Shown here piece after piece: positions 1-10,650 of a stretch of 10,650 bases of DNA (position 1 is its first letter; every line of letters starts with the position of its first letter). Under the pieces are notes generated by a model. It was given only the letters and a program-made list of their open reading frames with translations. It was not told where the DNA came from and made no database searches. The DNA is from an uncultured Bacilli bacterium (GTDB lineage: Bacteria > Bacillota_I > Bacilli_A > RF39 > UBA660). Made by a program: the position numbers and the translations under genes. The DNA lies in assembly GCA_948750805.1 (NCBI GenBank), contig CAPZYV010000026.1:1-10650 (forward strand), given 5' to 3'.

Positions 1-1013
1 ATATTAATAAACCTTTAAAGATTATTGGCATAACAGGTTCTAATGGTAAAACAACAACTACAACCATTATATATGAAATATTAAAAGCAGCAGGTAAAAG
101 TGTAAAATTAGGTGGAAATATTGGAACTCCATTATCCCAAATTGTAAATACACTAGAAGAAAATGATATTCTTTTATTAGAAATATCAGACCATCAATTA
201 ATTGATTTTAAAGATTTTAAAACTGATATTAGTGTGCTTACTAACCTTTGTCCAACTCATTTAGATTATCATGGTTCTTATGAAGCTTATAAAAATACTA
301 AAAAGAAAATATTTGCTCATCATACAAATAGTGATATAGCTATTATAAATAAAAATAATTTTGATTCTATGGAATTAACAAAGGATATTTTATCGACAAA
401 GTATTTCTTTAACGATGAATCTAATTATATAAAAGACAATTTAATTTATGTTGATAAAAATGTAGTTATTAACACTCACGACATTTTATTAAAAGGGGAA
501 CACAACTATGAAAATATTTTAGTAGTATTCTTACTTTTAAAAGTTTTAAATATTGATTTTAAATATGCTAAAGAAGTTTTAAAAAACTTTAAAGGTGTTG
601 AACATCGTATTGAATTTGTTAGAACTCTAAATGGTATAAGTTATTATAATGATTCTAAATCTACTAATCCGATTGCAACTATAACTGCTTTAAAAAGTTT
701 TAAAGAAAATATTCATTTAATATTTGGTGGTATGGATAGAGAACAAGAATTTGAAGCATTAATACCATATTTAAGTAAAATAAAAAAATTATATGCTATT
801 GGTGAAGTTAGAAATCGAATTGTTTCATTTGATAAAAAAAATAACATACTATATGAAGAGTATGAAACTTTAAAGGAAGCTATGGCAAGTATCAAAAATA
901 ATGCTATAGAAAACGATATAGTTCTTCTTAGTCCTGGTGCAGCTTCTTGGGACCAATATGCCAAATTTGAAGAACGTGGCGATGAATTTAAGAATATTGT
1001 TAACAATTATTAG
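1..1013 (+). CDS. murD: UDP-N-acetylmuramoylalanine--D-glutamate ligase MurD (5' end cut by window edge)
   Basis: Cytoplasmic ligase that adds D-glutamate to UDP-MurNAc-L-alanine using ATP, an early step of peptidoglycan synthesis. The reading frame is open from base 3, so about 110 N-terminal residues of a usual ~450 lie off the left edge and 336 are visible. The P-loop GITGSNGKTTT is at 27-59, followed by GGNIGTPL, then PTHLDYHGS of the central Mur-ligase domain. The C-terminal domain shows HRIEFV, the NDSKSTNP motif, IFGGMDRE and the closing SPGAASWDQY with FEERGDEFK, all diagnostic of MurD rather than MurC, MurE or MurF. An ATG-like start inside this frame (GTG at 234) is internal and not real. 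One oddity: the usual ELSSFQL reads EISDHQL here. A hairpin terminator follows at 1080-1106, so murD ends its transcription unit. Identification is secure; the missing N-terminus cannot be judged. Confidence 0.96.
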   Translation, partial: INKPLKIIGITGSNGKTTTTTIIYEILKAAGKSVKLGGNIGTPLSQIVNTLEENDILLLEISDHQLIDFKDFKTDISVLTNLCPTHLDYHGSYEAYKNTKKKIFAHHTNSDIAIINKNNFDSMELTKDILSTKYFFNDESNYIKDNLIYVDKNVVINTHDILLKGEHNYENILVVFLLLKVLNIDFKYAKEVLKNFKGVEHRIEFVRTLNGISYYNDSKSTNPIATITALKSFKENIHLIFGGMDREQEFEALIPYLSKIKKLYAIGEVRNRIVSFDKKNNILYEEYETLKEAMASIKNNAIENDIVLLSPGAASWDQYAKFEERGDEFKNIVNNY

Positions 1014-1079
1014 TTTAGATGTTATAGTCAAGAACAAATCTAAATGAAGAAAACAAATCACTAAATACTATAAAATTAT

Positions 1080-1106
1080 AAAACAAGGAAATCTTGTTTT
1101 TCTTTT
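1080..1106 (+). terminator. Rho-independent terminator after murD
   Basis: Perfect 8-bp stem AAAACAAG (1080-1087) and CTTGTTTT (1093-1100) around a 5-nt loop GAAAT. The downstream side is T-rich (1097-1106, interrupted by one C). It lies 67 nt after the murD stop and just before the next promoter. Confidence 0.75.
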
Positions 1107-1117
1107 TGCAAGCTTTC

Positions 1118-1146
1118 TTTACAAATTTAATTGTTTTTGTTATACT
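1118..1146 (+). promoter_or_regulatory. Sigma-A-type promoter for rlmB-sigH
   Basis: -35 TTTACA (1118-1123), a 17-bp spacer, and -10 TATACT (1141-1146). Both boxes match 5 of 6 consensus bases. The predicted start of transcription is near 1153, only about 12 nt before the rlmB start codon, so the ribosome-binding site would sit at the very 5' end of the mRNA. Confidence 0.8.
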
Positions 1147-1153
1147 AACAAGT

Positions 1154-1159
1154 AGGTGA
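1154..1159 (+). promoter_or_regulatory. Ribosome-binding site that fixes the rlmB start
   Basis: AGGTGA, 5 nt before GTG 1165. An in-frame GTG at 1156 lies inside this element and cannot be the start. An ATG at 1163 is out of frame. Confidence 0.75.
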
Positions 1160-1164
1160 TTGAT

Positions 1165-1854
1165 GTGTACGTATGTGGCCGAAATGTTTTAAAAGAAACA
1201 CCAATTAATAAAATTCGTAAAGTATATTTAAAAGAAAATTTTAAAGAACAAGAAATAATAAATTATCTTAAAGATAATAAAATTAAATACGAAATAGTGC
1301 CTGAATTTCGTTTAAATAAAATGACTAAAGAACGCCATCAAGGTGTAGTAATTGATGCGTTAGAATATGAATATTATAATTTAAATGATTGTTTAGACGA
1401 AAATTTTGTAGTATGTTTAGACCATTTAGAGGACCCTCATAATTTAGGTGCTATAATTAGAACCTGTGAGTGTGCGGGTATAAAATCTATTATTATTCCA
1501 AAAGAACGAAGTGTTAGAGTTACAGATACTGTAATGCGTACAAGTGCGGGAGCTATCAATAATGTTAAAATAATATTAGTTAATAATTTAAATGAAGCAT
1601 TAAAAAAACTTAAAAAAAATCTATTCTTTGTTTATGCTGCAGACATGGATGGAATAAATTATGCTGATGTTGATTATGCTAATAAAAAAGTATTAGTAAT
1701 TGGCTCTGAAGGAAATGGCGTTTCAAGAATAATTCGTGAAACTAGTGATGAAGTAATTAGTATTCCAATGACAGGTAAAATAAATTCTTTAAATGCTAGT
1801 GTTTCGGCAGGTATTTTAATCTATGGTATGATAAGAGGTAATAATGGAATATAA
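1165..1854 (+). CDS. rlmB: 23S rRNA 2'-O-methyltransferase RlmB (TrmH/SpoU family)
   Basis: SPOUT-class methyltransferase that uses S-adenosylmethionine to methylate the ribose of a 23S rRNA guanosine (G2251 in E. coli). The N-terminus MYVCGRNVLKE matches the YGRN start of the RlmB substrate-binding domain, which supports GTG 1165 (229 aa) over GTG 1156. The catalytic half carries motif 1 DPHNLGAIIRTCE with the conserved N and R, motif 2 IGSEGNGVSR followed by IPM, and motif 3 INSLNASVSAGI, which forms the knotted SAM site. Total length is normal for the family. It has its own promoter at 1118-1146. Its last 11 bases overlap sigH, implying translational coupling; rlmB, yacP and sigH are neighbours in Bacillus subtilis, and yacP is missing here. 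The family is certain. The exact target nucleotide is inferred from the family, and a tRNA target is less likely. Confidence 0.88.
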   Translation: MYVCGRNVLKETPINKIRKVYLKENFKEQEIINYLKDNKIKYEIVPEFRLNKMTKERHQGVVIDALEYEYYNLNDCLDENFVVCLDHLEDPHNLGAIIRTCECAGIKSIIIPKERSVRVTDTVMRTSAGAINNVKIILVNNLNEALKKLKKNLFFVYAADMDGINYADVDYANKKVLVIGSEGNGVSRIIRETSDEVISIPMTGKINSLNASVSAGILIYGMIRGNNGI

Positions 1855-2449
1855 TGAAGAAGAAATATTATCTTTAGCTTTAGAAAATAATGAAGAAGCG
1901 CGTAATATTATTTATGAAAAAAACAAATTTCTTGTAGATAATTTAATTCATAAATATTATCCTATTGCTACTAAATTAGGTATTGATATGAAAGAATTAG
2001 AGCAAGAGGCTTATTATGCTTTTTCTGATGCGCTAAACTCTTATCGTGAAGATAAAAATACTAAACTATCAACTTTTATTTTTCTTTGTGTAGAAAGAAG
2101 ACTGCAAAAAATTATTAAACGTTACAGTGGGGAAAAAGCTAAAATATTAAATAATACTTATTCTCTAGATTATGATTATAATGAAGATGGCACTACACTA
2201 AAAGATTTAATAAGTGATAATGAGCAAAGTGACCCTTTAAATAATTTAGCTAGTGAAGAAGATTATAAAGAATTATTAAAAAAGATTAAAGAATGTTTAT
2301 CTGAATCAGAGTATATTGTATTTAATTATGTCATAAAAGATTTTGATTATCAAACAATCGCTTTACTTATAAATAAAAATCCGAAACAAGTAGATAATAC
2401 TATTCAAAGAATCAAACATAAAATAAGAGATATTATCATGAGTGATTAA
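1844..2449 (+). CDS. sigH: Sigma-70 family RNA polymerase factor, sigma-H (Spo0H) type
   Basis: Alternative sigma factor of 201 aa (B. subtilis SigH is about 218). Region 2 runs roughly over residues 25-100, with a core-binding segment around KELEQEAYYAFSDAL and a -10-recognition segment around KLSTFIFLCVERRL. A short acidic linker follows, with the SigH-like pattern of aspartates and DP. Region 4 is an HTH near residues 145-197 ending in VDNTIQRIKHKIRDII, close to the NALQRVKRKL end of Bacillus SigH. There is no region 1.1 or 3 of housekeeping type. Its place directly after rlmB repeats the Bacillus order and strengthens the call. AGAGG at 1834-1838 lies 5 nt before ATG 1844, inside the rlmB end. 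In Bacillus, SigH drives transition-state, competence and early sporulation genes. Its regulon here is unknown, and no SigH promoter was identified in the window. Confidence 0.82.
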   Translation: MEYNEEEILSLALENNEEARNIIYEKNKFLVDNLIHKYYPIATKLGIDMKELEQEAYYAFSDALNSYREDKNTKLSTFIFLCVERRLQKIIKRYSGEKAKILNNTYSLDYDYNEDGTTLKDLISDNEQSDPLNNLASEEDYKELLKKIKECLSESEYIVFNYVIKDFDYQTIALLINKNPKQVDNTIQRIKHKIRDIIMSD

Positions 2450-2480
2450 CTTTATCACCTTGATAAATATCTCTTTTTTT
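2427..2480 (+). terminator. Terminator hairpin across the convergent sigH and radical SAM gene ends
   Basis: Outer arms 2427-2438 (GAGATATTATCA) and 2461-2473 (TGATAAATATCTC) pair over 12 bp with one bulged A at 2465. An inner GTGAT/ATCAC stem (2442-2446, 2454-2458) stacks inside. Seven Ts follow (2474-2480), a good terminator for sigH. Both stop codons lie inside the hairpin. Read from the other strand it is followed only by a weaker TTATTTTATG run, so termination that way is likely less efficient. Confidence 0.8.
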
Positions 2481-3353
2481 CATTTCTTTATCTATATCAT
2501 TTAATACACAAAATTTTTTTAATAGCCAAGCAGGAGCTATAAGTTCTTCTTTTATGGGGTCACCAGTAATTCTTTCTATTACAACTTTTTCATTTAAATT
2601 TTCTAATTGTTCACAAACAATATCAATATATTCTTCTTTACTTAAAATATGAAAAGATTCTTTTTGATACATACAAGCCAGTTCTGTATCTTTAGATATA
2701 TATAACATATGGATTTTAATGCCATCAATATTAAGCTTATTTAAATATTTAACAGTTTCTATCATCATTTCTTTAGATTCGTTTGGTAAACCATTAATAA
2801 TATGCACAACTGTAAAGATATTTCTCTTTTTTAAGCTTTTAATAGCTTTTTCAAAATTAGCTAAATCATGTCCTCTATTTATTAATTTTAAAGTTTCATC
2901 ATGCATAGATTGTAAACCAATCTCTAAAGTTAAAAATGTTTTTTGATTCAACTCTTCTAAATAGTCTAAAACATCATCTGCTAAACAATCACTTCTAGTT
3001 GCAATCGAAAGACCTACAACATTAGGAATTGATAAAGCTTCTTCATACTTTTCTTTTAAAGTATTTAAAGGAGCATAAGTATTACTATTAGCTTGAAAAT
3101 AAGCAATGTATTTAGAATTTGGCCATTTCTTTTCAAGTGGTATTTTGACAATTTCAAATTGGTCTTTTAAATCTAAATGAGAAAAGCTATTACCACTTCC
3201 GTGACTGCAAAAAATACATCCCTTACCATTTTTAAAATTAGGACAACTAAAATTACCATTTAAACTAACTTTAAAAACTTTAGAATTAAATTTAGTTCTT
3301 AAAAAATAATTTAAAGTATGATATCTTTTATTATCTAAAGTATATTTAAACAT
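2436..3353 (-). CDS. ytqA: Radical SAM protein, YtqA type (TIGR01212 family)
   Basis: Iron-sulfur enzyme of the radical SAM superfamily; the family's reaction is not firmly established. The N-terminal DNKRYHTLNYFLR and VFKVSLNG precede the cluster motif CPNFKNGKGCIFCS. The third cysteine follows the second by two residues (CX2C), and the first is eight residues earlier (CX8C), as in YtqA, whose spacing differs from the commonest CX3CX2C. Further on are an AYFQANSNTYAP segment typical of the family, a LSIATRSDCL strand and LEIGLQS, which belong to the TIM-barrel core. ATG 3353 (305 aa) is chosen because GGTGA lies 5 nt before it; ATG 3365 overlaps that site. The gene starts 32 nt after the upstream 390-aa gene on the same strand and is probably co-transcribed. 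Its last 14 bases overlap the end of sigH. The family is firm; the gene symbol is by similarity only. Confidence 0.85.
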   Translation of the reverse strand: MFKYTLDNKRYHTLNYFLRTKFNSKVFKVSLNGNFSCPNFKNGKGCIFCSHGSGNSFSHLDLKDQFEIVKIPLEKKWPNSKYIAYFQANSNTYAPLNTLKEKYEEALSIPNVVGLSIATRSDCLADDVLDYLEELNQKTFLTLEIGLQSMHDETLKLINRGHDLANFEKAIKSLKKRNIFTVVHIINGLPNESKEMMIETVKYLNKLNIDGIKIHMLYISKDTELACMYQKESFHILSKEEYIDIVCEQLENLNEKVVIERITGDPIKEELIAPAWLLKKFCVLNDIDKEMKKRDIYQGDKVNHS

Positions 3354-3358
3354 ATGCT

Positions 3359-3363
3359 TCACC
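3359..3363 (-). promoter_or_regulatory. Ribosome-binding site for the radical SAM gene
   Basis: Minus-strand GGTGA, 5 nt before ATG 3353. It decides against the ATG 12 nt upstream (3365), whose last base is the first G of this element. Confidence 0.65.
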
Positions 3364-3385
3364 ATTTATATTTTACGATTTATAA

Positions 3386-4558
3386 CTATATTTGTCTAGT
3401 TGTAACATCAAGCGTATTATTTGCATATCTTCTAATTGCAACATTTAGTACGATATCATAAAGTGGGATATTATTATCTACTAAAAAATCAATAATTGAT
3501 ATAAGTTCTTCTTTTGTTAAAGTTCTTCCAGTACCTGGTATAGGAAACCCATTTTCATCTTTTTCTAAATTAACTTCAATATTACTATTTATAATATTAT
3601 CTATATTAACAAATGTCGCAATCTTAAATTTTGCAAAAAAATTTCTTAAAATTTGACTATCTTCATTACTTAAAAATTTACTAAAAATCTTTGGCACAGA
3701 ATTTAATCTTCTACCATTTAAGAATAAATAATAATCAACAAAATCAAAACTTCTAATTCCTGTATCTGTTAAAACACCATTTTTAATATTAATCACAAGT
3801 TCATTATATAAAATTGCAAGCTCTATATTATCTTTAGGAGTAATAGTTCTTTTAGCTAAAACTTGTCTTTTTAATTTTTCATCTTCTAAAAAATGACATC
3901 TCTTAAAAAATCTATTAGGGTTTAAATTATGTAAAGAACAATACTCATCAGAACTTAATTCACTTTTAAGAAAATCTGTATATAATTCTTCTAAATTTAC
4001 TGGCTTAATATAAGTTTCTTCTAGTTTTTCTATTAATTCTTGATATAAATCATCTTGAGCTTTTCTATCTAAACTGTTGCAATAATGATAAACATAACCT
4101 CTTATCTCTTCTGGCGAAATTTTATTTTGTTTTCTAATTCTGGTTCTTTCTTCAATTGTTCCTGCGTTTCTAAATGCTTCAACATTTTTAATATATTTAC
4201 AATCAGAAGTAGTAAAGCAAGAATAATATTTTAATAAAATAGTACTAATTAAGTTTTTATGTTTAATATAAACATTTTGAAAATCTTGGTCATTAGCGGC
4301 ATAAGAAGATAAATGCCATATAATAAAGTTTTTTGAAATACCAAATACTTCAAATGTTTCTTTAACATCATCCAAATCTTCTGCTTCTATTAGAGCCATT
4401 TTATCTAGTGCTTGTTCAATAATTATTTTAATAGTATTATTAAATTGAAAAGTTTCTTCTAGTCCTTCGCACATAGAAAACTTTTGTGCTTTACGAAAAT
4501 CAACACTTGATAATGGCTTGAGATTAATAAAATTATCAAAAGCTTCTCTATAAGTCAT
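3386..4558 (-). CDS. Hypothetical protein, 390 aa, possibly DNA-binding
   Basis: I do not recognise this protein. It has no signal peptide or membrane segment and reads as a soluble, mostly helical, charged cytoplasmic protein. Three segments look like helix-turn-helix or similar short helical units: residues 72-86 (around GISKNFIIWHL), residues 189-228 (around EYCSLHNLNPNRFFKR) and residues 350-384 (around IPLYDIVLNVAIRRYA). The middle one, with a small turn between two helices and basic residues after it, is the best HTH candidate. Six cysteines are scattered (residues 30, 114, 120, 160, 207, 221) without a metal-binding pattern. The start ATG 4558 follows AAGGGTGA by 5 nt; GTG 4567 lies inside that site. 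A promoter candidate precedes it, and the radical SAM gene follows after 32 nt. A regulator or nucleic-acid-associated role is a guess. Confidence 0.7.
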   Translation of the reverse strand: MTYREAFDNFINLKPLSSVDFRKAQKFSMCEGLEETFQFNNTIKIIIEQALDKMALIEAEDLDDVKETFEVFGISKNFIIWHLSSYAANDQDFQNVYIKHKNLISTILLKYYSCFTTSDCKYIKNVEAFRNAGTIEERTRIRKQNKISPEEIRGYVYHYCNSLDRKAQDDLYQELIEKLEETYIKPVNLEELYTDFLKSELSSDEYCSLHNLNPNRFFKRCHFLEDEKLKRQVLAKRTITPKDNIELAILYNELVINIKNGVLTDTGIRSFDFVDYYLFLNGRRLNSVPKIFSKFLSNEDSQILRNFFAKFKIATFVNIDNIINSNIEVNLEKDENGFPIPGTGRTLTKEELISIIDFLVDNNIPLYDIVLNVAIRRYANNTLDVTTRQI

Positions 4559-4563
4559 AAAAA

Positions 4564-4571
4564 TCACCCTT
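4564..4571 (-). promoter_or_regulatory. Ribosome-binding site for the 390-aa gene
   Basis: Minus-strand AAGGGTGA, 5 nt before ATG 4558. It rules out the in-frame GTG at 4567, which is part of the element. Confidence 0.7.
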
Positions 4572-4584
4572 TAAAATTAGTAAT

Positions 4585-4613
4585 ACTCTATCACAAAATA
4601 GTTTAAAAGTCTA
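4585..4613 (-). promoter_or_regulatory. Candidate promoter for the 390-aa gene and the radical SAM gene
   Basis: On the minus strand: -35 TAGACT (4613-4608), a 17-bp spacer, and -10 TAGAGT (4590-4585) preceded by TGA, which gives an extended -10 (TGn). Each hexamer matches 4 of 6 consensus bases. Spacing and position are good; box quality is moderate. Confidence 0.5.
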
Positions 4614-4657
4614 GAATTATTTCTTACTAAAATTTATAAATAATTAAATTATAAAAA

Positions 4658-4688
4658 TTGTGCTATTTCTTATTTTAGTTCATATACT
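4658..4688 (+). promoter_or_regulatory. Candidate promoter for the calcium ATPase gene
   Basis: A good -10 TATACT (4683-4688) lies 22 nt before ATG 4711. The only -35-like box is TTGTGC (4658-4663), at a long 19-bp spacing. Transcription would begin near 4695, leaving a leader of about 16 nt that contains AAGGG. Confidence 0.5.
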
Positions 4689-4710
4689 TTTTTAGAAGGG
4701 ACGGGCTATC

Positions 4711-7311
4711 ATGTATCAAGGTCTAAATAATAATGAAGTAGAACAAAATCGTAAAAAGTATGGAACTAATAATATTAGTAATGTTAAAACAAATAGTTTT
4801 TTTAAACTTTTATTAGAGTCATTAGGTGACCCCATCATAAAAATTCTATTAATAGCACTAGCTATAAAAGTAGTATTCTTATTTAAAGATTTTGATTATT
4901 TTGAAACACTAGGTATTTTAATTGCTATATTTTTGGCTTCTTTTATTTCTACTATTTCTGAATATGGTAGTGAAGCTGCATTTAGACGTCTGCAAGAAGA
5001 ATCTTCAAAAATACTTGTTAAAGTTATTAGAAATGGAGCAGTTATTTCTATCCCTATTGAAGAAGTGGTGGTCAAAGATATAATAGTTTTAGGAAGCGGA
5101 GATAAAATACCTGCAGATGGTTATATTTTAAAAGGTGAGTTAAGTGTTGATGAATCAAGTCTTAATGGTGAAGCTAAAGAAGCTAAAAAGTATCCGCCTT
5201 TAAATGTTAATAATTTAAAAGATAATAATAAAGTTTTTAGAGGAACAGTTGTATATAACGGTAATGCTTATATGGAAGTTACAAGTGTTGGGGATAAAAC
5301 TATGTATGGTGCTTTAGCCCATGAAGTTGCAGAAGCTTCTCCTACCTCTCCACTAAAATTACGTCTTGCTGGACTTGCTAAATTTATTAGTAAAATAGGT
5401 TATTTCGGGGCTGGGTTAGTAACTATATCTTATCTTTTTTCTGTAATTGTAATTGATAATAATTTTGATATGACAGCCATTTTAAATACACTAACTAATT
5501 TTAAAGTTATGTTTGACCACTTAATTTACGCATTAACTTTAAGTGTTACAATAATTGTAGTCGCTGTACCAGAAGGTCTTCCTATGATGATTACTTTAGT
5601 ACTATCGAGTAATATGAAAAAAATGCTTAAAAGTAATGTTTTAGTGCGACGACTTACAGGTATTGAAACTGCTGGCAGTATCAATGTTTTATTAACGGAT
5701 AAAACTGGAACTTTAACTAAAGGCAAATTAGAAGTAACAGAAATCATAAGTGGAGATAATATTTACTATAAAAACATTAATAATCTTCAAAAAAATTTTG
5801 CTTATTATGAAAAAGTATATGAGTGCTTATACTATAATAACGATTCAAGTTATGATACTAATAATAATCCAATTGGGGGTAATCAGACTGATAAAGCATG
5901 CTTAAAGTTTTTAAATTTTGATAAAAATATTAAAAGAGCCATCATTAAGAAGACTCCATTTGATAGTAAAGTAAAATATAGTACAGCTACGTTAAATAAT
6001 GGTTTAACATATATTAAAGGTGCTCCTGAAATAATTATGCCCAATGTAAGTTTATACTTAAATAAAAATGGTGAAGAAAAAGTTATCTTAAACAAAAAAT
6101 TATTAACTAATCAAGTCGCTTCTTTAACTAAAAAAGGTATTAGAGTATTAGCTTTATGTTATAGTAAAAATAATAGTCTTGATAACTTAGTATTTATAGG
6201 TCTTATTGCAATTCGTGACGAACTAAGAAAAGAAACTAAAGAAGGTGTTAGTTTAATTAGAAGTGCAGGTATTAATATAATAATGATTACTGGTGATGCT
6301 CGTGATACAGCATGTGCTATAGCTCATGACGCTGGGCTACTTGATGAAGATGATTTAGTTTTAACGAGTAATGAATTATCTAAGATGAGTGATGAAGAAT
6401 TAAAAACTAAAATCGGAAATCTTAAAGTGGTTGCCAGAGCTCTACCCCAAGATAAATCACGTTTAGTAAGAGTGTTAGAAGAAATGGATTTAATTGTCGG
6501 TATGACAGGGGATGGTGTCAATGATGCTCCAGCTCTAAAAAAGGCTAATGTTGGTTTTGCGATGGGAAGTGGTACTGAGGTAGCTAAAGAAGCTAGTGAT
6601 GTTGTTATTTTAGATGATAATATTTTATCTATTAGTAAAGCTATTTTGTATGGACGAACTATATTTAAAAGTATTAGAAAATTTATTATATATCAGCTAA
6701 CAGTTAATATGTGTGCCTTAATTTTATCAATAGTCGCTCCTTTTATCGGTATAAATACGCCTATAACAATTATTCAAATGTTATGGCTTAATATGATAAT
6801 GGATACTTTTGCTGGCCTTGCATTTTCTTTTGAACCGGCTCTTAAAAGTTATATGACTGAACCTCCTAAATCTAAAAATGAACCAGTTATAAATTCTTAT
6901 ATGATAGGTGAAGTTTTATTTACTGGTTTATATTCCGCCATATTATGTATTTTGTTCTTAAAATTACCAATAGTTCGAGAATATATTAGGGTTGGCGAAA
7001 ACTATAAGTATTTAATGACTGCCTATTTTGCTTTATTTATTTTTATCGGAGTATTCAATTCATTTAATGCCAGAAGTGAACGTTTAAATATATTGGCTAA
7101 TTTAAAAGAAAATAAAGTATTTATTATAATCATAGCATTTATTTTAACAGTTCAAATTTATCTCATTTATCACGGGGGAGACTTATTTCGGACATACGGC
7201 CTAACGGCAAAAGAACTTTTCATTGTTTTACTATTAGCAGCTACTGTATTTCCTGTTGACTTTTTACGCAAAATTTATTTAAGACGCCATCACTTAAAAA
7301 CTGGTGTGTAA
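4711..7311 (+). CDS. Calcium-transporting P-type ATPase, P2B-like
   Basis: Membrane pump of 866 aa with about ten membrane spans, predicted to export Ca2+ at the cost of ATP. TM1-TM2 lie near residues 43-83. The actuator domain has DESSLNGEA, with Glu154 in the dephosphorylation loop. TM4 carries PEGLP (Glu288, a Ca2+ ligand). The phosphorylated aspartate is Asp330 in DKTGTLT. Nucleotide domain KGAPE is at 436-440, then MITGDARDTA and TGDGVNDAP (599-607, Mg-binding Asp601 and Asp605). TM5 has QLTVN (Asn666), and TM6 has LWLNMIMDTFAGLAF (Asn694, Asp698). The TM5 and TM6 residues fit the single-site pattern of plasma-membrane-type (P2B) pumps rather than the two-site SERCA type. The loop motif, normally TGE, is NGE (Asn152). 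No calmodulin-type tail is evident. It appears to be transcribed alone. Calcium is inferred from ligand residues; Mn2+ cannot be excluded. Confidence 0.9.
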   Translation: MYQGLNNNEVEQNRKKYGTNNISNVKTNSFFKLLLESLGDPIIKILLIALAIKVVFLFKDFDYFETLGILIAIFLASFISTISEYGSEAAFRRLQEESSKILVKVIRNGAVISIPIEEVVVKDIIVLGSGDKIPADGYILKGELSVDESSLNGEAKEAKKYPPLNVNNLKDNNKVFRGTVVYNGNAYMEVTSVGDKTMYGALAHEVAEASPTSPLKLRLAGLAKFISKIGYFGAGLVTISYLFSVIVIDNNFDMTAILNTLTNFKVMFDHLIYALTLSVTIIVVAVPEGLPMMITLVLSSNMKKMLKSNVLVRRLTGIETAGSINVLLTDKTGTLTKGKLEVTEIISGDNIYYKNINNLQKNFAYYEKVYECLYYNNDSSYDTNNNPIGGNQTDKACLKFLNFDKNIKRAIIKKTPFDSKVKYSTATLNNGLTYIKGAPEIIMPNVSLYLNKNGEEKVILNKKLLTNQVASLTKKGIRVLALCYSKNNSLDNLVFIGLIAIRDELRKETKEGVSLIRSAGINIIMITGDARDTACAIAHDAGLLDEDDLVLTSNELSKMSDEELKTKIGNLKVVARALPQDKSRLVRVLEEMDLIVGMTGDGVNDAPALKKANVGFAMGSGTEVAKEASDVVILDDNILSISKAILYGRTIFKSIRKFIIYQLTVNMCALILSIVAPFIGINTPITIIQMLWLNMIMDTFAGLAFSFEPALKSYMTEPPKSKNEPVINSYMIGEVLFTGLYSAILCILFLKLPIVREYIRVGENYKYLMTAYFALFIFIGVFNSFNARSERLNILANLKENKVFIIIIAFILTVQIYLIYHGGDLFRTYGLTAKELFIVLLLAATVFPVDFLRKIYLRRHHLKTGV

Positions 7312-7372
7312 AAAAATAAATTTATTACACCGTTCGACAAATTTTGCACGAATTATATGTTAATATCTTTTT

Positions 7373-7378
7373 AGGTGA
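7373..7378 (+). promoter_or_regulatory. Ribosome-binding site that fixes the sirA start
   Basis: AGGTGA, 7 nt before ATG 7386. It excludes an in-frame TTG at 7344 that would add 14 residues unlike the family N-terminus. Confidence 0.7.
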
Positions 7379-7385
7379 TGTAAAA

Positions 7386-7805
7386 ATGCGTACATTTTAT
7401 ATATTTAATATTAATAAAAGTTTTTATAATCTTATGAAAAACAATCCATATCATTTATATAAAGCGATGGAAGATATTCATACATTTGATGAAAGCGATA
7501 TTAATATGGCTTATGATTTATTTAAACAAATAGCTAGCCCTTTTGATAAAAGTAAAATTAATAATAAAATATTTAATGAAGCTAAAGATAATGACTTTTA
7601 TTCTAAGTTTCATAACGTTCATCGAATCCAAAATAAATATATACCTGAAGATTCTATGTTAGTGGTTAATAATGCTTTTATTCTTTTAGAAAGTAATATT
7701 TTAAAACCATATTTTATGAATACACTAAAAGAATATAAAAATTTATTTGTTTGCGATTTTAAAAATAAAGATTATTTTTGGTTAAACGAACTTGTTTGCT
7801 TGTAA
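7386..7805 (+). CDS. sirA: SirA-like inhibitor of replication initiation
   Basis: Small cytoplasmic protein of 139 aa (Bacillus subtilis SirA, formerly YneE, is about 148). In Bacillus it binds domain I of DnaA and blocks new rounds of replication when cells commit to sporulation. The N-terminus MRTFYIFNINKSF resembles the start of SirA, an aromatic-rich beta strand. The C-terminus FVCDFKNKDYFWLNEL matches the family ending, where Bacillus has a DF, an aromatic residue and WLN in the same places. The middle is divergent. The next gene is yneF, exactly the neighbour of sirA in B. subtilis, which is the strongest support. No clear promoter was found in the 74-bp gap after the ATPase gene; a weak extended -10-like TGTTAATAT lies at 7358-7366. 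Family call fairly firm; the DnaA target is inherited from the family. Confidence 0.78.
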   Translation: MRTFYIFNINKSFYNLMKNNPYHLYKAMEDIHTFDESDINMAYDLFKQIASPFDKSKINNKIFNEAKDNDFYSKFHNVHRIQNKYIPEDSMLVVNNAFILLESNILKPYFMNTLKEYKNLFVCDFKNKDYFWLNELVCL

Positions 7806-7828
7806 AAAACCATATTTTATAGTAAAAT
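7800..7828 (+). promoter_or_regulatory. Candidate promoter for yneF
   Basis: -35 TTGTAA (7800-7805), a 17-bp spacer, and -10 TAAAAT (7823-7828). These match 4 of 6 and 5 of 6. The -35 overlaps the sirA stop codon. A competing -10 TATAGT at 7818-7823 has only a poor -35. yneF could equally be read through from sirA. Confidence 0.45.
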
Positions 7829-7851
7829 TAAATACGTAAGGAGAAAAAATT

Positions 7852-8061
7852 ATGTGGGGAGAAATACTTTGGGGAATAATTGGTTTAATCGCTGGTTTAG
7901 TAATTGGATTTTTTCTAGCTAGATTCTTAATGCAAAAATATTTAAAGAAAAATCCACCTATAAATGAAAAAATGATTGAAGTTATGATGACTTCTATGGG
8001 AAGAAAGCCAAGTAAAAAGCAAGTAAACCAAGTTATGAGCCAAATGAACAAATTTATGTAA
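7852..8061 (+). CDS. yneF: UPF0154 family membrane protein YneF
   Basis: Single-span membrane protein of 69 aa; the family has no established function. The N-terminus holds one hydrophobic helix of about 20 residues rich in G, A and I (around residues 5-26), followed by a basic juxtamembrane stretch. The soluble tail carries the hallmark NPPINEKMI, then [18 protein letters not shown], which defines UPF0154. Length equals that of other members. Start ATG 7852 has AAGGAG 8 nt upstream. It follows sirA by 46 nt, as in Bacillus subtilis. A strong bidirectional terminator begins at its stop codon. Confidence 0.92.
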
Positions 8062-8089
8062 AAAATGAAGCCAATGTGCTTCATTTTTT
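8060..8089. terminator. Bidirectional terminator between yneF and the NadR-like gene
   Basis: Perfect 12-bp stem: AAAAAATGAAGC (8060-8071) pairs with GCTTCATTTTTT (8078-8089) around a 6-nt loop. The A and T runs give a U-tract in both directions. The stem overlaps the last base pairs of both converging genes: the yneF stop at 8059-8061 and the minus-strand gene stop at 8081-8083. Confidence 0.9.
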
Positions 8090-8548
8090 CATATCATTAT
8101 AAATACTACTATCTACCATATCTTTATAATTATCAATATTATTTCTAATTAGAGTCGCACTTATTGGAAATAACTTTCTATTTATATCAACTTCTCGATT
8201 TATAATATGCATATATTCTGCAACTTTAATCCCATATTTTTCACTACTATAAAAATGAGTTGGTTTAATATTGCCTAAAACATTTACTAAATATTTCATT
8301 TGTACTTGAACACTTTTATAATCAAGACCATACATTGATGGGGGATTATGAGCTATTATTATTTTAACTTCTGGGTATAATTTTTTAATCCATTCAGCTC
8401 TTATTTCAGAACTAATATTTATTACATCAGTATCATATACAATTACATAGAATATATCCATTTCTTTTAAAGCTGTTTCAATTAAATATTGATGTCCTTT
8501 ATGAAGGGGAGCAAACTTACCTATTGTAAAACCAATTTTTTTATCCAT
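8081..8548 (-). CDS. NadR-type nucleotidyltransferase (probable NMN adenylyltransferase), single domain
   Basis: Cytoplasmic HxGH-superfamily enzyme of 155 aa, expected to join AMP from ATP to nicotinamide mononucleotide in NAD salvage. The N-terminus GFTIGKFAPLHKGHQYLIETAL holds the catalytic HKGH (His16, His19) and is the typical NadR version of the motif. The second signature, ISATLIR (129-135, Arg135), fits the ISxTxxR nucleotide-binding motif. The central EIRAEWIKKLYPEV and THFYSSEKYG are also NadR-like. Enteric NadR carries an HTH before and a ribosylnicotinamide kinase after this domain. Here the kinase is absent, and an HTH regulator is a separate gene ending 2 nt upstream. GAGG (minus strand 8558-8555), 6 nt before the ATG, lies inside that gene, indicating translational coupling. 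The domain is confident; NMN as substrate is inferred. Confidence 0.8.
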   Translation of the reverse strand: MDKKIGFTIGKFAPLHKGHQYLIETALKEMDIFYVIVYDTDVINISSEIRAEWIKKLYPEVKIIIAHNPPSMYGLDYKSVQVQMKYLVNVLGNIKPTHFYSSEKYGIKVAEYMHIINREVDINRKLFPISATLIRNNIDNYKDMVDSSIYNDMKK

Positions 8549-8550
8549 TT

Positions 8551-8829
8551 TTAACCTCTAGAATTATTATAAGTTAATTTATCAATTTTTCCAAGAATAT
8601 AATCAGCACTAACATTATAATTTTTACAAATGGTATATAAAAAGGGAGTGGCAATTAAATTTGTGCCTCTCTCATATTCAGCAATAGTTGATTGATTCAC
8701 GTGTAATATCGAAGCTAATTTATTTTGAGTCAGTTTATTTTCTTTACGAAATTCTTTAATTCTTTTCCCAGATTCTAATTTATCAAGCTTTTTAATATTG
8801 ACATAGTTTAATAAAATTAAATATATAAT
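8551..8829 (-). pseudogene. Second HTH domain of a frameshifted tandem XRE regulator
   Basis: The frame is open from just after a TAG at 8832-8830 to TAA 8553-8551 and holds a complete XRE-type HTH domain of about 65 residues. It begins at GKRIKEFRKENKLTQ, continues through NKLASILHVNQSTIAEYERG, and ends with YNVSADYILGKID. There is no ATG, GTG or TTG start in this frame, so it is not an independent gene. It lies in the +1 frame relative to the upstream HTH ORF. The whole stretch 9001-8551 is 451 nt, one base more than a multiple of three, and would encode a 149-aa two-HTH protein if one base were removed. Tandem HTH proteins of this kind are, to my recollection, common in gut Firmicutes. It could be a true pseudogene, a sequencing or assembly error, or less likely a programmed shift. 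Confidence 0.75.
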
Positions 8830-9001
8830 CTAATGAAACATTAAAATAATCACATAAAGTACTCAAATATTTTATAGGTATTATATAATATTCGCTTTCA
8901 TAATGGGTATATGTAATTTCAGATATATTTAAAATTTCTGCTACCATTTTTTGAGTTAGGTCATGTTTAACTCTTAGTTCTTTTAATCTTTCACTATACA
9001 T
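8792..9001 (-). CDS. XRE-family HTH transcriptional regulator (first half of a broken tandem-HTH gene)
   Basis: DNA-binding domain of the Cro/C1 (XRE) type. From ATG 9001 it encodes 69 residues: MYSERLKELRVKHDLTQ, then helices 2 and 3 in KMVAEILNISEITYTHYE, and the family ending YFNVSLDYIF. Start ATG 9001 has GGTGA 5 nt upstream (minus strand 9011-9007); the in-frame TTG at 9013 overlaps that site. After YIF the frame gives a short unrelated tail, FNFIKLCQY, and a stop at 8794-8792, while a second HTH continues in the next frame. A full-length partner would be 149 aa. It is divergent from the surface-protein gene at 9172 and heads the unit with the adenylyltransferase gene. As written, the product would be a one-domain protein that may still bind DNA. 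Its target is unknown; NAD salvage or its own promoter is a guess from position. Confidence 0.75.
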   Translation of the reverse strand: MYSERLKELRVKHDLTQKMVAEILNISEITYTHYESEYYIIPIKYLSTLCDYFNVSLDYIFNFIKLCQY

Positions 9002-9006
9002 TAATT

Positions 9007-9011
9007 TCACC
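9007..9011 (-). promoter_or_regulatory. Ribosome-binding site for the XRE gene
   Basis: Minus-strand GGTGA, 5 nt before ATG 9001; it decides the start over the TTG at 9013. No convincing promoter was found for this gene; TTTGGT and TATGAG around 9020-9050 are weak. Confidence 0.6.
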
Positions 9012-9073
9012 AAGATAATTTTCTCATATTAATTTATTAATAAAACCAAACCGTTAAAATAATGATATTTTTC

Positions 9074-9102
9074 TTGACTTTAAATATAGAAGATAATATA
9101 GT
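9074..9102 (+). promoter_or_regulatory. Sigma-A-type promoter for the surface-protein gene
   Basis: -35 TTGACT (9074-9079), a 17-bp spacer, and -10 TATAGT (9097-9102), 5 of 6 in each box. It is the closest to consensus in the window. Transcription should begin near 9109, giving a leader of about 63 nt. Confidence 0.85.
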
Positions 9103-9117
9103 ATTAATGTAAATAAT

Positions 9118-9154
9118 AAAATTCTAAAATTGAGCGCTAATTATTTAGAATTTT
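9118..9154 (+). promoter_or_regulatory. Hairpin in the 5' leader of the surface-protein gene
   Basis: Perfect 11-bp inverted repeat AAAATTCTAAA (9118-9128) and TTTAGAATTTT (9144-9154), separated by 15 nt that contain the palindrome AGCGCT and short ATT/AAT complements. It lies wholly within the predicted leader and ends 17 nt before ATG 9172, just ahead of the AGAAGG ribosome-binding site (9158-9163). The only T run is the end of the stem itself, so it is a poor terminator. It may instead stabilise the mRNA, bind a regulator, or be a recombination site. Confidence 0.6.
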
Positions 9155-9171
9155 GAAAGAAGGAATAAATA

Positions 9172-10599
9172 ATGCAATTTGAAGTAATAAGAAAAAGTCA
9201 TAAGAAGAGTATTATAGTAGGAGTTACTATCTTTATAATATTAGCAATAGTATTAGTAGTAAAATTTACTTTTGCTGAATATAGCTTAGTAAAAAGTATT
9301 AAAATAGCACAAGGAACTATTAATTACAAAATACCAGATTTTAAAATAATGGCAATGTATAAACAAAAAGAAGAAAGTAATTGTACTGAAGATTCTTGCT
9401 ATAATGAAATGGCAGAAAATGAAGTAATGCCAGAAAGTGGTTATGTTATAAATGAATCTAAAAGTTATTGTGAATTAAATGGTAATAAAGATAATAATGC
9501 CAAAATATATACAGACGATAATGGTAATCATGTGGTTTCTAAAATTACTAGGGGAAGTAGATGTTATATATACTTAGATAAAGTTCTAACAGCAGGAGAA
9601 ACAATACTTGGAAATGTTACTGTAAATAGTGGAACACCAGATTTTAGTAAAACAGCGCAAGCGGAATGTAGCAATACATATGCTTGTGAAACAACAAATG
9701 GCGTATATAAAGCCAAAGATAATGATGGAGAAAGCTATTACTTTAGAGGAAGTGTCGAAAATAATTATGTAAAGTTTGCGGGATTCTATTGGCGAATCAT
9801 CAGAATAAATGGCGATGGAAGTATAAGACTAATTTATGATGGAACAAGTGCTCATGCTAATGGTACAAGTACAAGTGAAAGCATAGCAGTAACAGAAGTA
9901 AAATGGTCTCATAAAGATGCATATTGGAATAGTTCGGATGACAATACATACATGAACAATAATGCGTATGTCGGATTAAAATATACAATAGGAGAACTTA
10001 GAGGGCTAGGAACAAAATCAAACGCTTTACAAGAACTAGAGAAATGGTATACAAGTAATCTATCAAAATATGCAAATAAAATAGATACTAATGCAGGATT
10101 CTGTGGCGATAGAACACCAAGTACAAGTAATACAACAAGTAATGGTTTAGGAGGAACAGGAACAACCGAAACATATTATGGAGCGAGTATAAGACTATTT
10201 AATAGTGACAGTTCAGCAAATTCATCTCCAGTGTTAACATGTGAAAATATTAATGATTTGTATACGATAAGTAATTCAAATAAGGGGAATAAAAGTTTAA
10301 CATATCCAATCGGATTAATAACAGCAGATGAAGTTTCTATGGCAGGAGGAATAACTACAGTAAGAAATAGCGGTTACTACTTATATAATGGACAAAATTA
10401 TTGGACTTTATCACCAAGAAATTTTAAGTATACATCAGCTTATATGTTTTTTGTGGATGATGGTGGGGGCAATAACGGTAATCATATGCATGCAACACTT
10501 GGCCTACGTCCAGTAATAAATATTCGTTCTGACACTAAATTTATTTTCACGGGAACAGGCGATAAAGGAACTATCACTAACCCTTACATTGCATCCTGA
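9172..10599 (+). CDS. Membrane-anchored extracellular protein with a C-terminal DUF6273-like domain
   Basis: Function unknown; 475 aa. A basic N-terminus is followed by one hydrophobic helix (residues 13-33) and a possible signal-peptidase site after TFA (residue 35), so it is either a secreted protein or anchored by an uncleaved helix. No LPXTG or second membrane span is seen. Eight cysteines (71, 76, 100, 131, 166, 172, 311, 357) all lie outside the membrane helix, an even number that suits disulfides. Recognisable blocks are YYFRGSVENNYVKFAGFYWR (189-208), a Ser/Thr/Asn/Gly-rich stretch (314-333), YPIGLITADEVSMAGG (378-393) and YWTLSP (410-415), followed by GLRPVIN (444-450). The last two resemble the W-SP and RP blocks of DUF6273-like domains. 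I recall multi-copy relatives in uncultured gut Bacilli. It has its own promoter and a leader hairpin. Adhesion or ligand binding is inference. Confidence 0.75.
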   Translation: MQFEVIRKSHKKSIIVGVTIFIILAIVLVVKFTFAEYSLVKSIKIAQGTINYKIPDFKIMAMYKQKEESNCTEDSCYNEMAENEVMPESGYVINESKSYCELNGNKDNNAKIYTDDNGNHVVSKITRGSRCYIYLDKVLTAGETILGNVTVNSGTPDFSKTAQAECSNTYACETTNGVYKAKDNDGESYYFRGSVENNYVKFAGFYWRIIRINGDGSIRLIYDGTSAHANGTSTSESIAVTEVKWSHKDAYWNSSDDNTYMNNNAYVGLKYTIGELRGLGTKSNALQELEKWYTSNLSKYANKIDTNAGFCGDRTPSTSNTTSNGLGGTGTTETYYGASIRLFNSDSSANSSPVLTCENINDLYTISNSNKGNKSLTYPIGLITADEVSMAGGITTVRNSGYYLYNGQNYWTLSPRNFKYTSAYMFFVDDGGGNNGNHMHATLGLRPVINIRSDTKFIFTGTGDKGTITNPYIAS

Positions 10600-10650
10600 C
10601 TAACGGACAGTTTTAGGTAAAGCAAGATAAACAGAGAAAAGAATAAGAAA
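10600..10650. other. Unassigned 3' end of window
   Basis: The 51 bases after the surface-protein stop hold no ATG on the + strand, no convincing terminator and no clear repeat. The segment is purine-rich at its end. It may be the leader of a following gene or the flank of a template or cassette element outside the window. Confidence 0.4.

Follow-up and report, generated by a model that had tools for sequence, protein, structure and literature searches.

The surface-protein gene and its variable region

We analyzed a 10,650-nt stretch of DNA from an uncultured Bacilli bacterium (assembly GCA_948750805.1, contig CAPZYV010000026.1, positions 1 to 10,650; 'the window' below means this whole stretch), with emphasis on a gene near its right-hand end that encodes a 475-aa surface protein, to which all residue numbers refer (Table 1). 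The initial annotation had singled out an irregular block near the C-terminus of this protein and suggested that the gene might be a target of a diversity-generating retroelement (DGR), or might belong to a family diversified by gene conversion. DGRs are generally presented as compact cassettes. As in a DGR target, the variable region (VR) of the window gene lies near the 3' end and is flanked by conserved borders, and the coordinates given for the block between YWTLSP and GLRPVIN were correct. In an alignment of 83 homologs (A1), residues 416-443 ranked first in variability among the 448 segments of 28 residues, with a mean column entropy of 2.80 bits compared with 1.40 bits for the whole protein. 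The variability followed a comb pattern, in which positions 423, 425, 426, 428, 432, 434 and 439 were less variable than their neighbors.

It was also proposed that 13 of the 18 codons for residues 426-443 end in T or C (NNY) because of adenine-directed mutagenesis. This count was accurate, but codons of this type make up 233 of 475 in the gene, 17 of its 458 stretches of 18 codons reach 13, and the hypergeometric p of 0.038 is post hoc, as the stretch was picked after the fact. The codon count is a weak argument, which by itself would not show a DGR.

Table 1. Parts of the surface-protein gene in the window
Feature	Position	Strand	Remarks
Surface-protein gene, 475 aa	9172..10599	+	Open reading frame (ORF); very large paralogous family; some homologs with PF19789 (DUF6273)
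N-terminal predicted helix, residues 11-33	9202..9270	+	Secondary structure of the model, of low to middling confidence there
C-terminal domain, residues 139-475	9586..10596	+	C-type-lectin-like in the predicted model
Conserved 5' border YWTLSP, residues 410-415	10399..10416	+	
VR, residues 416-443	10417..10500	+	Highest-entropy segment; non-A sites unmatched by the templates read
Conserved 3' border GLRPVIN, residues 444-450	10501..10521	+	VR-type end CCAGTAATAAAT; template RNAs carry CCAATATCC instead
C-terminal tail, residues 451-475	10522..10596	+	Differs between homologs with near-identical bodies

The window protein had no Pfam match at E<=0.1 and did not itself fall into PF19789, a family whose curated cut-off is passed by homologs P0003 and P0037. 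Judging from its hydrophobic sequence, the N-terminal helix is a probable membrane anchor. Lectin-like folds were among the structural matches of the predicted C-terminal domain; known DGR-target structures were not among them, which excludes nothing.

Homologs of this protein are abundant in related genomes. Among the 7999 candidates scored (those sharing most words with the window protein), 7931 matched at E<=1e-3. Matches per genome numbered 42 in G035, 45 in G012, 42 in G021, 18 in G019, 11 in G001, 26 in G002 and 4 in G003, with certain genes yielding more than one match. The family has up to some forty members per genome. In two homologs on separate contigs, P0005 and P0080, the body is followed by one and the same out-of-frame tail, which suggests that both derive from one frameshifted copy or carry the same assembly error.

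To place the window, we compared its radical-SAM gene (2436-3365) with 386 sampled genomes of the wider family. The best identities were found in G035 (83%), G019 (80%), G001 (78%) and G012 (75%), followed by G021 and several others (69-73%), and we infer from this single marker that the window belongs to the genus of G001. This genus was sampled as a group of 36 metagenome-assembled genomes (MAGs) of unstated completeness, which includes the five genomes just named; G001 and G002 are MAGs labeled uncultured Tenericutes. The VR-type tail was present in 34 of the 36 genomes, with 1-40 copies in each, whereas a reversed-pattern control gave 0 in all. In the window, a small ORF (7344-7805) matched SirA, the sporulation inhibitor of replication (E 1.2e-6); the lineage is a small-genome, Tenericutes-like one.

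Template units in the genus

The VR codons of G001 and G002 pointed to an adenine-rich template. Used as a BLAST query, the reconstructed template had matches in 31 of the 36 genomes, part of them about 300 bp apart and hence too close together for whole genes. These template units are short and non-coding, with GGTTAATCT ahead of a template core, which is followed by the tail GGTGTGCGYCCAATATCC and then by a conserved 3' element and a T-run. The template-specific tail could be identified in 30 of the 36 genomes, with 1-24 copies in each (the most in G034, G007 and G018, with 24, 20 and 14, respectively), and its reversed pattern in none. Spacings between units on one locus and strand (n=50) were mostly 254-372 bp (38 cases); one was 609 bp, seven were 1295-1352 bp and four were longer. 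The spacing of 1295-1352 bp recurred in several loci (L258, L260, L261, L205 of G018, L199 of G012 and L218 of G024). Viral contigs had no match to the exact template-tail pattern or by protein search, and a phage origin was set aside.

In the 19 genomes bearing a reverse transcriptase (RT) for which all tails were listed, template tails never lay on the RT contig; the contigs are short and give no distances. Similarly, a template near the RT, which is typical of DGRs but not obligatory, was not found in contig C25 of G001 (G001:C25; L050) or in the eight of nine RT loci that had a VR in the same locus for comparison.

Adenine specificity of the differences

We read 108 template units from chosen places in 27 genomes as well as 101 VRs, dropping stretches that were cut by a locus end or lacked a border, and the VRs were compared with an aligner that treated all mismatches alike, with no preference for A. 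Relative to an all-A reference of our own reconstruction, the 101 VRs were changed at 1333 of 2455 A sites (54%), 489 of 1461 C sites (33%), 272 of 1274 G sites (21%) and 172 of 1275 T sites (13%). It should be noted that sampling was partly biased, in that the 15 VRs of G031 came mostly from pattern searches and the 27 of G035 mainly via protein search. Clean VRs (less than 15% non-A change) accounted for 43 of the 101, including 6 of 27 in G035. Homology in clean VRs and templates begins at the 5' border with TCTCCG, where the window reads TCACCA.

When VRs were paired with the best template of the same genome, the 14 of 93 VRs selected differed at 219 of 449 A, 19 of 359 C, 12 of 290 G and 12 of 335 T positions; selection required that non-A mismatches plus half the gaps be <=6, which partly lowers the non-A rate but not the A rate. 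The best pair, from G023, differed at 16 of 37 A and at 0 of 70 other bases, with one gap position, in keeping with a template repeat that differs from its VR at adenines. In addition, species-peculiar bases were common to the templates and VRs of that species. The G011-specific GGGGTGCG was found in both template tails and in 15 of 16 VR tails, and the G023-specific GGTTTGCG in all three template tails and a VR.

The 108 template units also departed from the reconstructed reference, being changed at 29% of A, 14% of C, 9% of G and 7% of T sites. This pattern varied among genomes (A/C/G/T, %): 62/29/19/11 in G034 and 35/7/3/3 in G007, with a slight or absent A excess in G012 (14/17/0/0), G025 (19/8/15/8) and G030 (17/7/15/9).

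Structure and signals of the template RNA

The template units appeared to encode a structured RNA. Of 104 usable 3' elements, 66 were aligned (A2). The 14 base pairs of stems P2 and P3, which were named after inspection of the alignment, were paired in 94% of cells, and 11 of them showed two-sided changes; cells changed on both sides numbered 52, compared with 10.7 in shuffled alignments and <=10 with the partner slid. The TATCC of the tail pairs with GGATA in all 108 units, nine of which had changed on both strands and were still paired, while one more was a flank variant. An outer stem, P1, closes around the template and was paired in 850 of 864 cells in the best of six registers tried, with 12 two-sided changes compared with 1.5 in shuffles (maximum 6) and 3.6 in shuffles within genomes (maximum 9). 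TATAAT was located <=30 nt upstream of P1 in 78 of 108 units (control 5), in 60 of these 78 at a distance of 6-7 nt, and a T-run followed downstream in 84 of 102 units.

A covariance model built on the 3' element (R1) had matches in 8 of the 386 sampled wider-family genomes (E<=1e-5, strict filters), namely four of the genus plus G139, G287, G310 and G378. Adenine-rich cores preceded the R1 match in loci of the latter four, most clearly in L279 and L280. These loci (L277-L280, in G139, G378, G310 and G287, respectively) contain diverged units resembling template RNAs, with other tails and a different VR border; the tails of L278-L280 have ATTCC facing GGAA. No Rfam match was obtained at E<=0.1 for L213, L253, L265 or the window.

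The RT operon

A DGR-type RT (RVT_1) was identified in 26 of the 36 genus genomes. In G001:C25, a MutS_I-like ORF (E 3.3e-6) is followed by a bAvd-like ORF, whose E of 4e-9 falls slightly short of the curated cut-off, and then by an RT of 375 aa. A scan of 18 RT loci found IGNMTSQ in 17 and IGNMSSQ in one (L157), with YMDD downstream in 17, the remaining locus being ended by a contig edge; we take these to be RT motifs. The best PDB sequence match of the RT was 8ub7 ('Reverse transcriptase', 7.5e-26), presumably the Bordetella phage DGR complex, and the next was a maturase RT (2e-12). The bAvd model matched in 24 of the 36 genomes at E<=1e-3 and in 4 above the curated cut-off; this genome-wide search missed G001, whose ORF was found by direct scan.

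RT genes contained several stops in G010 (C43), G012 (C6) and G016 (C50) and one stop in G004, G006, G007 and G032, and that of G002 was split across two contig ends. The three genomes with decaying, multi-stop RTs retain family members, with 8, 12 and 3 VR-type tails, respectively. In G015 (L141, L147), G018 (L143) and G033 (L142), the sole RT was a 42-44% identical DGR-like type, which was also found beside the main RT in G006 and G017. G001 has a second RT-domain protein (L013, G001:C6, ORF 1270-2211; 313 aa, YCDD motif), which is apparently not a DGR RT and is presumably retron-like.

A proposed trans-acting DGR with separate template genes

We consider it likely that residues 416-443 are the VR of a lectin-like family diversified in trans by a DGR with separate template-RNA genes, the window copy having probably drifted and matching none of the templates read. 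The genomes themselves show the components, the bias towards adenines, the covariation in the RNA and the species-peculiar bases shared by templates and VRs, and we infer from these the transcription of the templates, synthesis of complementary DNA (cDNA) and homing. An RT operon such as that read in G001 (MutS_I-like, bAvd-like and RT) would act in trans, with the templates supplied by a set of separate template-RNA genes, one to two dozen in number and many of them arranged in tandem. Each unit typically combines a putative -10 box of its own with a stem that closes around the template, a structured 3' end and a T-run resembling a terminator. From the template RNA, the RT would make a cDNA with errors at adenines, which would then take the place of the VR of any paralog. 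The copy in the window most likely descended from such a VR, followed by ordinary mutation and recombination of the 3' end.

Because template A sites change more than others, we tentatively propose that the template genes themselves might evolve by adenine mutagenesis. The cDNA copied from one template would return to other templates as well as VRs, and the arrays would constitute an evolving, heritable library whose members range from fresh, adenine-rich templates to fixed, adenine-poor ones. Alternatively, the templates could show the same A excess because variation at those codons is tolerated, an effect exerted by way of the VRs.

Several observations weigh against a trans-acting DGR of this kind. 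The nearby RT and template repeat for which the annotation had recommended a search did not turn up in the window: its ORF list contains no RT, the repeat families shown include no member resembling a template repeat (TR), and R1 finds nothing there. G035, the nearest genome by the one marker, has 8 template tails yet no RT at E<=1e-30 and no bAvd. Among the 36 MAGs, RT and template tails were not significantly associated (23 had both, 7 only the template tail, 3 only the RT and 3 neither; Fisher p = 0.32). The minimum free energy of one whole template unit was no lower than that of shuffles (z +0.9), and a general consensus promoter/terminator scan of one array (L253) gave no excess over shuffles, whereas the position-specific count of TATAAT shows one. 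Moreover, the all-A reference is a reconstruction. Finally, compared with the best of the 108 templates, which come from related genomes and in no case from the window's own species, the window VR differs at 25 of the 68 non-A sites and at 14 of the 32 A sites.

Because of these non-A mismatches, the window copy looks retired, or its template is among those unseen. Its VR ranked 77th of 101 in non-A change and was similar to most G035 VRs, which have drifted, and to those of G019, where no RT or template matches were found and none of six VRs was clean. The window gene is probably a DGR-family surface protein that is no longer templated. The initial proposal of a DGR target holds for the family, with RT, Avd-like ORFs, templates and adenine-biased targets in relatives; in this copy the adenine signature is absent.

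Alternative explanations

The diversity might instead have arisen by gene conversion or 3'-end recombination among paralogs, the DGR being incidental to the window copy. As a replacement for the DGR we find this doubtful; rather than excluding the DGR, it complements it. In a piecewise comparison of the 89 usable homologs of 120 listed, 25 pairs with near-identical bodies (body >=0.85, VR <0.7) had median identities of 0.93 in the body, 0.75 in the last 20 residues before the VR, 0.30 in the VR, 0.88 in the border and 0.68 in the tail, so the difference extends past the VR border. Conversely, in five pairs with body <0.8 the VRs were identical and the tails >=0.96 (two of these pairs are alike except for P0106 and P0107, which are interchangeable); P0004 and P0015, for example, share an identical VR and tail on bodies of 0.68 identity. 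DGR homing alone should leave body and tail equally similar, so 3' ends are probably exchanged as well in this family, and the alternative raised in the initial annotation gains support. On the other hand, some of these pairings may come from chimeric assembly, as can happen in metagenomes where sequences are repeated, and several contigs of G035 terminate at family genes. Gene conversion leaves the adenine bias of clean VRs and the template RNAs unexplained.

It is unlikely, though less so than ordinary selection, that the window copy is itself an active DGR target whose template, with a different non-A backbone, lies among the sequences unread. The templates read are indeed a sample without the window's species, GCT and GTG codons are kept in register in the window copy, and the entropy of homologs peaks at its VR. 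However, even the best template is far from it at non-A sites, and relative to the reconstructed reference the window VR changed at C as often as at A (9 of 15 vs 13 of 24, with 3 of 12 for G and 3 of 13 for T). The signature was likewise lost in 21 of the 27 VRs of G035, and drifted copies are common. A surface loop under ordinary diversifying selection or relaxed constraint, with no special mechanism, would fit the window copy's substitutions without adenine bias and the absence of clean VRs in G019, but this reading is very improbable for the family given the adenine bias, templates and RT within the same genus and near-identical bodies with only 13-53% VR identity.

Comparison with known systems

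Like the DGR of the Bordetella phage BPP-1 (outlined in part in PMC4891356), the system has an RT of the same family, an Avd-like partner, adenine-directed differences between TR and VR, a 3' VR in a lectin-like fold (predicted here) and different 3' ends of TR and VR. Unlike in BPP-1, the templates number from several to many and stand alone, often in tandem, and none was found next to an RT gene. A small number of RT genes would act on numerous targets, covarying stems belong to the template RNA itself, and in G001 a MutS_I-like ORF comes before Avd.

Multiple TRs and trans activity have already been reported (PMC4891356, PMC6642488, PMC10907252). The DGR of Treponema denticola shares with our system several remote surface-protein targets, targets left over in strains without the core system and multiple TR variants in some individuals' metagenomes, the last being tied there to several colonizing clones (PMC4891356), whereas here a single MAG has up to 24 template tails. 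RT/TR activity in trans on remote targets was also proposed for Thiohalocapsa PB-PSB1; its nine DGR loci and 15 targets were shaped by locus duplication, and the available sections describe no template-only arrays (PMC10907252). In the MetaCSST survey, 271 of 948 DGRs had multiple VRs, 216 of those 271 with one TR. Some had several TRs and many VRs, as here, but one such DGR, with 6 TRs and 91 TR-VR pairs, was called atypical and had few A-to-N changes, and the portion consulted does not mention genes for a template RNA that have a promoter, stems and a terminator (PMC6642488). A large DGR survey sought repeats around the RT (PMC8144416). We came across no account of arrays made up of template RNA genes alone in the PMC papers searched, which included no bioRxiv preprints and few subscription papers.

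With an RT operon, up to 24 template genes and tens of targets in a genome of 0.8-1.5 Mb, searches centered on the RT could under-count such systems, and the covariance model R1 allows template RNAs to be found without a nearby RT. If the proposed arrangement is true, one enzyme would diversify a large share of the surface of a small-genome bacterium. Taken together, the sequence comparisons support a many-template, trans-acting DGR.
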